Shown in pieces: positions 17,220 through 22,678 of a stretch of DNA of 38,508 nt. The position numbers were made by a program, and so were the translations under genes. The DNA lies in the NCBI GenBank assembly GCA_039961735.1, contig JABRVX010000067.1, forward strand, positions 1 to 38,508, read 5' to 3'. The notes under the pieces are model-generated. The model was not told the DNA's origin and did no database searches. It worked only from the letters and a program-made list of their open reading frames with translations. Numbering within the stretch: the stretch's first letter is position 1; every line of letters begins with the position of its first letter. This stretch comes from Fimbriimonadia bacterium. Lineage in GTDB: Bacteria > Armatimonadota > Fimbriimonadia > Fimbriimonadales > JABRVX01.

Positions 17220-17560
17220 GGGAGTTGGCCGGGCGGCGGCTCCGACCTTCGGTCGGGGAGGAAAGTCCGGGCTCCGCAGGGCACGGCGCCGGGTAACACC
17301 CGGGCGAGGCGACTCGACGGAAAGTGCCACAGAAACATACCGTCCCGACGATGTCGGGATAAGGGTGAAATGGTGAGGTAAGAGCTCACCGGGTCCTTGG
17401 AAACGAGGGCGCCGGGCAAACCCCGCCGGGAGCAAGACCGAATAGGGAGGGGACGAGGTGGCCCGCTGACCCTCCGGGTAGGTTGCTGGAGGCCGTCGGC
17501 AACGACGGTCCTAGATAGATCGCCGCACAAACACAGAACCCGGCTTACAGGCCAACTCCC
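17220..17560 (+). ncRNA. rnpB: RNase P RNA, bacterial class A
   Basis: This is the catalytic RNA that removes 5' leaders from tRNA precursors. Conserved landmarks appear in order: GAGGAAAGTCCGGGCTCC (CRI), the GCCGGGTAACACCCGGG stem, CAGAAACATACCG, GATAAGGGTGAAA, a GGTAAGAGCTCACC stem-loop, CGGGCAAACC, GGGAGCAAGACCGAATAGGG, CCGGGTAGGTTGCT, CCTAGATAGAT and ACAGAACCCGGCTTA. The terminal P1 helix is perfect over 11 bp: GGGAGTTGGCC (17220-17230) with GGCCAACTCCC (17550-17560), which fixes both ends. The total of 341 bases is normal. The protein subunit gene rnpA is not in the window. Confidence 0.97.
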
Positions 17561-17763
17561 ACGCGCGCGCCTCGCGAGACGTACTGCTGGCGCCCCGCCG
17601 GGTTAGGTATCGCCACCACCCATCAGTGCTCTCGTCGAAGGCAGCCCAGAGAACAGTATCCGCGGTTGCCTGAAGGTGGAAAAGTTGCCTAACCTGCACA
17701 CACCGGCCCCAGATACCCCAGTATCTCATGTCCTACGTCTTGACTGCGATCCTGACTGTAGAC

Positions 17764-20629: not shown

Positions 20630-21649
20630 ATGAGCAACTACGTAGACCTACGCAGCGACACCGTCACCCGACCCACGCCGGAGATGCGCCAGGCGATGTT
20701 CGACGCCGAAGTGGGCGACGACGTGTTCTCCGACGACCCAACCGTCAACCGCCTACAAGAGATGGCCGCACGGATGATGGGCAAAGAGGCAGGCCTGTTC
20801 GTTCCCACCGGCTCCATGGGCAACCAGGTGGCCGTGCGCACGCATACCAAGCCGGGGGACGCCATCATCCTGGACGAAGACTGCCACATCCTGCACTACG
20901 AGGTGGGCGCGCCTGCCGTGCTCTCGCAGGTGATCACCGAAACGGTGCCCAGCGTGCGGGGCATCATGGACATCGAGGCCGTGGCGGCACGCTTTCGCCA
21001 GCAGACCACCCACACTCCCGGCACCACTTTGCTTTGCCTGGAGAACACCCACAACCGGGCGGGGGGCACCATCACGCCGCTCTCGCACATGCAGGAGCTT
21101 TCGCGCCTGGCGCGCGAGCACGGGGCGGGCGTGCACCTGGACGGCGCGCGGATCTTCAACGCGTCGGTAGCAACCGGGGTGCCTGCAAGCGAGTACGCGG
21201 CGTGCGCCGATTCGGTCATGTTCTGCTTCTCCAAGGGCCTCTCGTGCCCGGTGGGATCCATGCTCGTGGGCTCTCGGGAGTTCATCGCGCGGGCGCACCG
21301 ATGGCGGAAGATGTTCGGCGGGGGGATGCGTCAAGCGGGCGTACTGGCCGCGTGCGGCATCGTGGCGTTGGAAACCATGATCGACCGGCTGGCAGAGGAC
21401 CACCGCAGGGCCCGGCTACTAGCAGAGGCGCTGGTCGAGGTCTCCGGCCTAACGGTGGACATGGAGGCAGTGCAGACCAATATGGTGTTCGCGGTGACCG
21501 AGCGGCCCGCTGCCGAGGTGCAGGAGCGCATGCGAGAGAGAGGCATCCTACTGCTCCCGGTAGGCGCGCATCGGATAAGGATGGTGCTGCACAAAGACGT
21601 GGACGACCGGGGGCTCGAACGCGCTATCGCCGCCTTCCGGGCCGGCTGA
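20630..21649 (+). CDS. ltaE: Low-specificity L-threonine aldolase
   Basis: This PLP enzyme splits L-threonine or L-allo-threonine into glycine and acetaldehyde. The 339-residue product has the family start YVDLRSDTVTRPTPEMR, the GDDVFSDDPTVNRLQE segment, LENTHN, HLDGARIFN (the Asp and His of the PLP site), and FCFSKGLSCPVGS with the Schiff-base Lys at residue 202. The length is normal. ATG at 20630 is preferred over 20591 because it gives the family N-terminus. A compact promoter with an inverted repeat directly precedes it. A glycine-forming enzyme is compatible with glyQS in the window, but they are not linked as an operon. Confidence 0.95.
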   Translation: MSNYVDLRSDTVTRPTPEMRQAMFDAEVGDDVFSDDPTVNRLQEMAARMMGKEAGLFVPTGSMGNQVAVRTHTKPGDAIILDEDCHILHYEVGAPAVLSQVITETVPSVRGIMDIEAVAARFRQQTTHTPGTTLLCLENTHNRAGGTITPLSHMQELSRLAREHGAGVHLDGARIFNASVATGVPASEYAACADSVMFCFSKGLSCPVGSMLVGSREFIARAHRWRKMFGGGMRQAGVLAACGIVALETMIDRLAEDHRRARLLAEALVEVSGLTVDMEAVQTNMVFAVTERPAAEVQERMRERGILLLPVGAHRIRMVLHKDVDDRGLERAIAAFRAG

Positions 21650-21684
21650 TTAGGCACTCGCGTGGCATCGTGGCGGCATCGTGG

Positions 21685-21735
21685 CATCGCCGTCTCGGCG
21701 ATGGTCTCCACCACGGGCGGGACGCCCGTGCCACG
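21685..21735. repeat. Single copy of the palindromic repeat unit
   Basis: One 51-base unit of the same family as the array at 1-332, with CATCGCCG/CGGCGATG and CACGGGCG/CGCCCGTG inverted pairs and a few substitutions. A degenerate start (CGTGGCATCGTGG, GGCATCGTGG) precedes it. It lies in the gap between ltaE and the flgM leader. Confidence 0.85.
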
Positions 21736-21822
21736 TGAGTGGCATCGTCTCCAAGCCCTGGCCCGCGTCCGCCACTTACACCCGCCGGGCGAAGATTCTT
21801 CCTATTTTTTCTGCCGGAACCC

Positions 21823-21850
21823 TAAAGAACCCCGCCGAGGCTGCCGAATA
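21823..21850 (+). promoter_or_regulatory. Sigma-28-like promoter upstream of the flgM leader
   Basis: TAAA (21823-21826), 16 bases, then GCCGAATA (21843-21850) resembles the sigma-28/SigD promoter (TAAA, 14-16 bases, GCCGATAT). Transcription would begin near 21857, about 20 bases before the riboswitch. A sigma-28 promoter on the gene of its own anti-sigma factor is known in flagellar systems. Confidence 0.45.
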
Positions 21851-21875
21851 TGCGATTAGAGACCGTTGGCTTCTT

Positions 21876-21952
21876 GACAGTCAAAAGGCAAACCCGTAGC
21901 GATGCGGGGACGCAAAGCCAAGGATCCCACGTGGACAGCCTGGCTGCCTGTC
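21876..21952 (+). promoter_or_regulatory. c-di-GMP-I (GEMM) riboswitch
   Basis: The leader of flgM carries the conserved c-di-GMP-I core: GGCAAACC, a stem, then GGGACGCAAAGCC, and AGCCTGGCTGCC. The closing P1 helix is GACAG (21876-21880) with CTGTC (21948-21952). The first internal stem is CCCGTA (21893-21898) with TGCGGG (21903-21908), capped by GCGA, a GNRA tetraloop as in the family. No intrinsic terminator follows; the flgM ribosome-binding site (GAGGAGGG, 21976-21983) is 24 bases downstream, so translational control is the likely mode. The ligand-off structure cannot be read by eye. Confidence 0.9.
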
Positions 21953-21989
21953 TGGGACTTCGCTGACGAACCCACGAGGAGGGTCACGA

Positions 21990-22277
21990 ATGAAGATCTC
22001 AGGCATCGAATACGAAAAGGTTATGCGCCTCGTTCAGGACCACCTGGACGCCGCAAATTCTCCCACTTCCGCCACCGACACGCCCGATACTGCCGTGGAC
22101 CCGGAGGACGCGAAGCTGATCGAAGAGATGGTTCGCCGGGTGGAAGAGCTTCCCGACGTTCGCGAGGACGTGGTCGAGGACATCCGCGCGCGCATCGCGG
22201 ACGGTACCTATAAGATCAACTCCGCCGCGGTTGCCGATCTGATGCTCCGCCGCTCCCGAGCCGACCGCCTGAAGTAG
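21990..22277 (+). CDS. flgM: Anti-sigma-28 factor FlgM
   Basis: FlgM binds and holds the flagellar sigma factor until the hook is finished, then is exported. The 95-residue product starts MKISGIEYEKVMRL. It has a low-complexity Ser/Thr/Asp/Pro middle and the family C-terminal helices: AKLIEEMVRRVEELPDVRED, VEDIRARIADGTYKINSAAVADLMLRR, with the usual GTYKI-A-A pattern. ATG at 21990 has GAGGAGGG 6 bases upstream. No other flagellar gene is in the window, so it is an orphan here, though a flagellar regulon elsewhere is implied. It is led by a sigma-28-like promoter and a c-di-GMP-I riboswitch. Confidence 0.88.
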   Translation: MKISGIEYEKVMRLVQDHLDAANSPTSATDTPDTAVDPEDAKLIEEMVRRVEELPDVREDVVEDIRARIADGTYKINSAAVADLMLRRSRADRLK

Positions 22278-22301
22278 CGATGTATCTCGAACGGAGTTTT
22301 T

Positions 22302-22378
22302 GACTGCGCGAGCCAGGTCGCGCTTTGGCCACAGGGACCAACCCGTCGGCGCGAAAGCGGGAACAGGCTCGCGCAGTC
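22302..22378. other. Structured inverted-repeat element after flgM
   Basis: GACTGCGCGAGCC (22302-22314) pairs perfectly with GGCTCGCGCAGTC (22366-22378). Inside, CGCTTT (22320-22325) can pair with AAAGCG (near 22353), and GGG with CCC at the tip. This makes a long, interrupted hairpin of about 77 bases just after the flgM stop. It could be a terminator, a small RNA or a repeat element; no related copy is visible elsewhere in the window. Confidence 0.4.
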
Positions 22379-22441
22379 CCTTCGCGCTCCTCCCGCCCCG
22401 CTATCTCTCCATCCGCCCTCGACGATGGGGCACTGGTATCC

Positions 22442-22546
22442 GTCATGCTGAGCCTGTCGAAGCATGCAGCCGCATGTCGCGTCTTGTCACCTTCACATGC
22501 CACGCCCGCGGGTCCCGGACACATGCTTCGACAGGCTCAGCATGAC
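22442..22546. repeat. Inverted pair of a 25-bp repeat
   Basis: Two perfect copies of a 25-base repeat (core CTTCGACAGGCTCAGC) lie in opposite directions at 22442-22466 and 22522-22546, so the 105-base segment could fold with 25-bp arms. Each copy has its own small CATGCT/AGCATG inverted ends. Two more copies lie at 30177 and 30254. Between flgM and the next gene no real ORF is seen. Confidence 0.9.
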
Positions 22547-22678
22547 GAGCGGGCGCGCCGTCCCTTGTCACTGACGCAGCCTGGCCCTCGGATGTAGGGC
22601 CACTGTCGCCAAGGAGCCTGTTCGTGCCGGCGAGCGCTGGTCCAGCACCTTTACAAGCGGTATTAGGCGACCCTCCAG

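Follow-up and report, generated by a model that had tools for sequence, protein, structure and literature searches.

In a bacterium of the order Fimbriimonadales (Armatimonadota), the gene for the anti-sigma-28 factor FlgM is preceded by a predicted sigma-28 (FliA)-type promoter and a c-di-GMP-I riboswitch aptamer, and we consider it probable, as a whole reading, that c-di-GMP closes stem P1 of the aptamer in this FliA-dependent leader, so that FlgM rises and FliA is silenced. The stretch of DNA analysed (the window) is 38,508 nt long and makes up the whole of one contig (C67) of a 3.24-Mb genome. Computed support was obtained for the aptamer, for FlgM, for the promoter motif and its sharing with flagellin genes, for conservation of the arrangement, for P1 covariation and for an alternative pairing above that of shuffled sequences; ligand binding, the direction of the switch, its translational level and its effect on motility are what we infer. 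An earlier note on the window had described the order promoter, aptamer, flgM, and all of these elements were recovered at the same coordinates. The features are as follows, from 5' to 3'.

21821..21851, plus strand: predicted sigma-28 (FliA)-type promoter, CCTAAAGA (21821-21828), 14 nt, GCCGAATAT (21843-21851); 15/17 motif match
21870..21876, plus strand: CUUCUUG, a candidate alternative anti-Shine-Dalgarno segment (RNAfold of 21870-22002; weak, prediction only)
21876..21880, plus strand: 5' strand of stem P1, GACAG, pairing with 21948-21952; P1 covaries in family f2 of the relatives
21877..21951, plus strand: c-di-GMP-I riboswitch aptamer (RF01051), 59.5 bits, the sole match in the genome, with GG in the GGCA core
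21946..21962, plus strand: 3' strand of P1 and the next bases, GCCUGUCUGGGACUUCG, paired with 21987-22004 in the minimum free energy (MFE) fold; predicted start mask when P1 is open
21977..21983, plus strand: Shine-Dalgarno (SD) sequence AGGAGGG, read from the sequence, 24 nt after P1
21987..22004, plus strand: start-codon region, CGAAUGAAGAUCUCAGGC, predicted to pair with the 3' strand of P1 when no ligand is bound
21990..22277, plus strand: flgM, anti-sigma-28 factor (PF04316 and TIGR03824)

The flgM reading frame starts with ATG at 21990 and encodes 95 aa. The product matches Pfam FlgM (PF04316, 51.6 bits, cut-off 25) and the NCBIfam equivalog TIGR03824 (44.8 bits, cut-off 40.75); FlgM is the only Pfam family found at E 0.001, and a genome-wide scan gave a single FlgM gene. 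FliA is encoded on contig C5 (TIGR02479, 246 bits, cut-off 189.6) and the flagellar export protein FlhA on contig C20, thus FlgM has a likely target, which it is predicted to bind and inhibit. Flagellin genes are found on contigs C3, C33 and C57, and six proteins of the genome carry GGDEF domains. The flgM gene does lie away from these other flagellar genes, as the earlier note had it: among its neighbours are genes for a beta-eliminating lyase, ParA/ParB, DciA, a competence protein and glycyl-tRNA synthetase, and since FlgM gave the only flagellar family match among the window proteins scanned, it stands alone. Nor was a flagellar cluster detected among the scanned genes flanking FliA (PPDK, MazG and an ABC transporter).

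Several other elements were observed. Two inverted repeats lie 3' of flgM. One of them, at 22302-22378 and about 25 nt past the stop codon, has 28-nt arms that are 86% complementary around a 21-nt loop, and is a possible transcript end. The other, at 22441-22547, has perfect 26-nt arms, CGTCATGCTGAGCCTGTCGAAGCATG, separated by 55 nt, and has the appearance of a dispersed repeat. A bacterial class A RNase P RNA lies at 17221-17563 of the window (304 bits). On contig C64 of the same genome (locus L062, 964-2319, minus strand) a 451-aa reading frame combines a sigma-70-family factor (regions 2, 3 and 4) with a C-terminal GGDEF domain, the signature of which reads RADEF and is probably degenerate; it adjoins a pilC/gspF-like gene and might possibly be a c-di-GMP-linked sigma factor.

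The covariance-model search that the earlier note had called for gave 59.5 bits for RF01051 (E 2.5e-9) against a gathering score of 35. The match spans the full model (positions 1-87), the core is intact, and no second match was found in the 3.24-Mb genome, which bears out the claim of a complete c-di-GMP-I aptamer upstream of flgM. The details given for it also stood: P1 is formed by GACAG (21876-21880) and CTGTC (21948-21952), the GCGA-capped stem is present and corresponds to P2, and the ribosome-binding site follows P1 after 24 bases. The distance from the aptamer to the ATG is 38 nt. In 82/82 flgM leaders from this and related genomes the GG of the GGCA core, the region of G20 as located by motif, is kept, and in none of the 82 is there an A in place of G20, the mark of the 3',3'-cGAMP (GEMM-Ib) variant; the GG is what we take to be the G20 state. 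Because G is kept at this core position, c-di-GMP is favoured over cGAMP and is the predicted ligand of the aptamer.

The promoter consists of TAAA (21823-21826), 16 bases and GCCGAATA (21843-21850), and matches 15/17 positions of the phylum motif CCTAAAGA-N14-GCCGATAAT. When the 130 nt upstream of each aptamer were scanned with the pattern CCTAAAGA-N13-16-GCCGATAAT, a score of at least 13/17 was reached in 74/82 flgM leaders against 0.4% of shuffled upstream regions, a partly circular comparison as the motif words were picked after viewing the relatives. An independent check is given by the published flagellar promoter consensus (-35 TAAA, -10 GCCGATAA), which the motif matches (PMC8325347), and by flagellin genes of relatives, 10 of 31 of which have upstream regions scoring at least 13/17 (0.6% of shuffles), several of them at 16-17/17. 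The window genome's own flagellin promoters are weak (best 12/17), which speaks against the proposed reading. No sigma-70-type promoter was found within 21600-22450. The sigma-28-like character that had been proposed for this promoter is therefore well placed, and we class it as probably FliA-type with a predicted start site. Of the two outcomes that the earlier note had named as refuting, a lack of a significant covariance-model match and a transcription start past the aptamer, neither was borne out by computation. A strict genome search with TAAAG-N14-17-GCCGAWA returned zero matches because the -10 element of the window reads GCCGAATA, and a looser pattern was rejected as a definition of the regulon, with 17 matches against 9 for the reversed pattern.

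The proposed mechanism is as follows. c-di-GMP is a "stop swimming" signal in bacteria, high levels of which usually go with less swimming. The FliA-dependent transcript would carry the aptamer in its leader, followed by the FlgM coding region. At high c-di-GMP the aptamer would be bound and P1 closed, which would withdraw a P1 strand from a competing helix over the ribosome-binding site and the start codon; with the start unmasked, FlgM would be translated, and FliA and the late flagellar genes would be turned off. At low c-di-GMP the leader would mask the start and FliA would be unrestrained. Since the promoter itself appears to be FliA-type, the FlgM brake would be made solely while FliA is active, and the circuit would be a negative feedback gated by c-di-GMP.

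Folding of the window leader is consistent with such a start mask. In the MFE structure of the free RNA (RNAfold), 21946-21962 is paired with 21987-22004, and the expected pairs between the P1 3' strand and the initiation region number 11.5 against 3.9 (sd 3.95) in shuffles, a value reached by 3/40 shuffles. When P1 was forced, positions -13 to +13 had a mean unpaired probability of 0.50-0.54, up from 0.36, for three of the four transcript lengths, in a calculation that leaves out aptamer tertiary contacts and co-transcriptional folding; no opening of this region was seen in the shortest transcript tested (to 22002). It is the start-codon region alone that opens, the accessibility of the SD sequence being 0.37-0.43 in the free RNA and 0.34-0.42 with P1 forced. 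In the short transcript 21870-22002, CUUCUUG (21870-21876) can also pair with the SD region CGAGGAG. No intrinsic terminator-like site was found in the window leader; this and the 38 nt between aptamer and ATG favour control at the level of translation.

The alternative pairing was found again in related families. Pairing of the P1 3' strand with the initiation region exceeded that in dinucleotide shuffles in f2 (8.5 vs 1.6 pairs), f10-f14 (7.4 vs 2.2), f19 (9.5 vs 2.3) and pooled f4/f5. In f2, where the helix CUGUCUCC/GGAGGCAG masks the SD sequence, forcing P1 raised SD accessibility from 0.12 to 0.55. P1 itself covaries in f2, with 8 cells changed on both sides (0/500 shuffles); covariation in the masking helix is modest because its SD side barely varies. 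In a partner-swap test, which asked whether the leaders' own partners fit better than swapped ones, the p-values were 0.0014 for f2, below 0.0002 for f10-f26 (0/5000 permutations) and 0.0006 for f3 via the P1 5' strand, all of them rough because related leaders were counted separately after an 80% identity filter. We infer that c-di-GMP switches FlgM on in the window's own lineage, for which the same test (pooled f1/f4/f5) was not significant (p=0.35).

A different platform appears to be used in f31, f32 and f35. Pairing with the SD sequence was rejected for f31-f35 (0.66 vs 1.53 pairs, swap p=0.99), which fits a terminator reading. In most f31/f32/f35 leaders a stretch that runs into a U-tract, for example GUUUGCCUUUUU, can pair with the aptamer core AAAAGGCAAAC; its complementarity is perfect or near-perfect, it lies 19-34 nt past the aptamer (62 in one leader), and in whole-leader RNAfold structures the resulting stem closes around the aptamer. 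The U-tract leaders with this core complement are L113-L116, L119-L121, L123-L124, L126, L129, L131, L136, L138, L144 and L152. The platform in these families thus appears to be a terminator with the aptamer core as its 5' arm, in which ligand binding would release the core and allow read-through, again an ON switch.

RF01051 matches were obtained in 47/61 Fimbriimonadales genomes, one per genome, and each of the 47 aptamers is immediately followed by an FlgM gene. In 9/47 of these genomes FlgM is too diverged to be detected by Pfam; the nine proteins were recovered by a phylum HMM built from the remaining Armatimonadota FlgMs (E 4e-11 to 1e-16, shuffled decoys at least 0.07). These diverged FlgMs belong to genus g6 of family f2 (G005, G008, G023, G026, G030, G032, G034, G040 and G042) and were found solely via the upstream riboswitch and the phylum HMM. 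Six Fimbriimonadales genomes have FlgM without a listed aptamer, and three of the six show sub-threshold candidates. In one of the few members of the order without a c-di-GMP-I match (G049) an AdoCbl-II riboswitch lies near flgM (L021, 446-521, minus strand). FlgM and aptamer are both absent in five genomes without FlhA (G012, G022, G025, G041 and G043), a co-loss that speaks for the proposed reading, although the assemblies of G022 and G025 are less complete. Flagellar export genes occur in most aptamer carriers. FlgM and the aptamer are kept in G037, a member of the order with a 5.2-Mb genome in one contig and no FlhA; the FliA regulon there may be non-flagellar, and flagella may not be the target in every case.

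Further out in the phylum, 40 leaders from ten more families have an FlgM reading frame after the aptamer in 40/40 cases. Sampled FlgM loci of families f36, f42, f43 and f45 gave no aptamer, and some genomes hold FlgM and aptamer unlinked, thus the trait is widespread but not universal. At seven FlgM loci of other phyla, a small sample, no aptamer was detected. Since the order promoter, aptamer, flgM recurs in relatives, it is more than a chance arrangement, and on the strength of the RF01051, Pfam and NCBIfam matches and of this recurrence we reject chance and annotation error. The earlier note had singled out this exact wiring as deserving attention: it is present as described, but it is conserved within the order and over much of the phylum and is not a one-off. 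That the aptamer has been kept next to flgM in 15 families speaks for selection. We are evenly balanced over a wider reading, namely that a largely phylum-wide and ancient c-di-GMP brake sets the motile-to-sessile decision at the anti-sigma mRNA, and that lineages have swapped the expression platform and kept the sign (FlgM ON). The platforms in that reading would be a P1 3' strand that masks the SD sequence or start codon, a P1 5' strand that masks the SD sequence, and a terminator built from the aptamer core.

The main rival to the proposed mechanism is one of opposite sign, in which c-di-GMP would lower FlgM (OFF) and a high level would free FliA, for example for non-flagellar targets. An OFF switch has a precedent in Cd1, the class I riboswitch of the Clostridioides difficile flgB operon (PMC5386303), type IV pili of other phyla can be under the control of FliA/WhiG-type sigma factors (PMC8325347), and the SD sequence in the window is no more accessible with P1 closed. 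We nevertheless regard the OFF sign as unlikely, since the helix that competes with P1 masks the initiation region in f2, f3 and f10-f26, in agreement with the swap tests, and the terminator-like stem of f31/f32/f35 again predicts ON. Flagellar export genes in most carriers point the same way, given that high c-di-GMP usually means less swimming.

Slightly less likely still is that the window aptamer acts through transcription termination or mRNA stability and not translation. This idea draws its substance from f31/f32/f35, where a U-tract segment able to pair with the aptamer core lies 19-62 nt past the aptamer, but the window leader is without a terminator-like site and has just 38 nt from aptamer to ATG; in the window such control may take the form of Rho-dependent termination or RNase action. 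GEMM-I-type folds bind both c-di-GMP and 3',3'-cGAMP, and the structure of a class I GEMM with a G20A change was solved with cGAMP (PMC6274999). That cGAMP is the ligand of a GEMM-Ib variant here is nevertheless very improbable in view of the G20 state in every flgM leader and of the six GGDEF domains encoded in the genome. We give the least credence to a decayed relic without regulatory role in the window genome: several relatives do fall below the cut-off, but the window aptamer is 24 bits over the gathering score with its core intact, and aptamers have been retained beside flgM in 15 families.

In the classical FlgM-FliA checkpoint, FlgM is controlled by export through the hook-basal body. 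The system described here shares with it the FlgM and FliA homologues, the sigma-28-type flgM promoter and the negative feedback, and is predicted to add a c-di-GMP input at the flgM mRNA. Each of the parts (aptamer class, FlgM, FliA promoter) is of a known kind. The leader resembles other c-di-GMP-I (GEMM-I, RF01051) riboswitches in aptamer sequence, core and stem layout and in having a motility gene downstream, and differs in that the gene it would control encodes an anti-sigma factor and that a sigma-28-type promoter stands in front. It is also like Cd1, a class I c-di-GMP riboswitch that cuts flagellar output at high c-di-GMP, as is predicted here; Cd1, however, is transcribed from a sigma-A promoter and acts by transcription termination ahead of the early flagellar operon (PMC5386303), whereas the target here is the inhibitor gene flgM and the switch is predicted to be ON and mostly translational. 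In the RsiG-(c-di-GMP)-WhiG switch of Actinobacteria, it is the anti-sigma protein itself to which c-di-GMP binds (PMC8325347). Here the sensor would be the leader RNA, and the anti-sigma factor matches FlgM models and is not classed as RsiG, so that the two are separate systems of convergent logic. In the open-licence literature we found no report of a c-di-GMP riboswitch on flgM or of any riboswitch in Armatimonadota; the original GEMM surveys may mention one.

If the proposed mechanism is true, c-di-GMP would control flagella in these bacteria through production of a sigma-factor inhibitor and not through a block on flagellar genes or on the motor. The mechanism would stand beside the protein switch RsiG-WhiG as its RNA counterpart, making two independent inventions in which c-di-GMP arms the anti-sigma factor of a FliA-type sigma factor. 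The feedback layout predicts fast flagellar shutdown solely in cells already making late flagellar genes, and the natural leaders, with varied platforms and one predicted sign, would be a good system in which to study how riboswitch mechanisms change under a kept logic.
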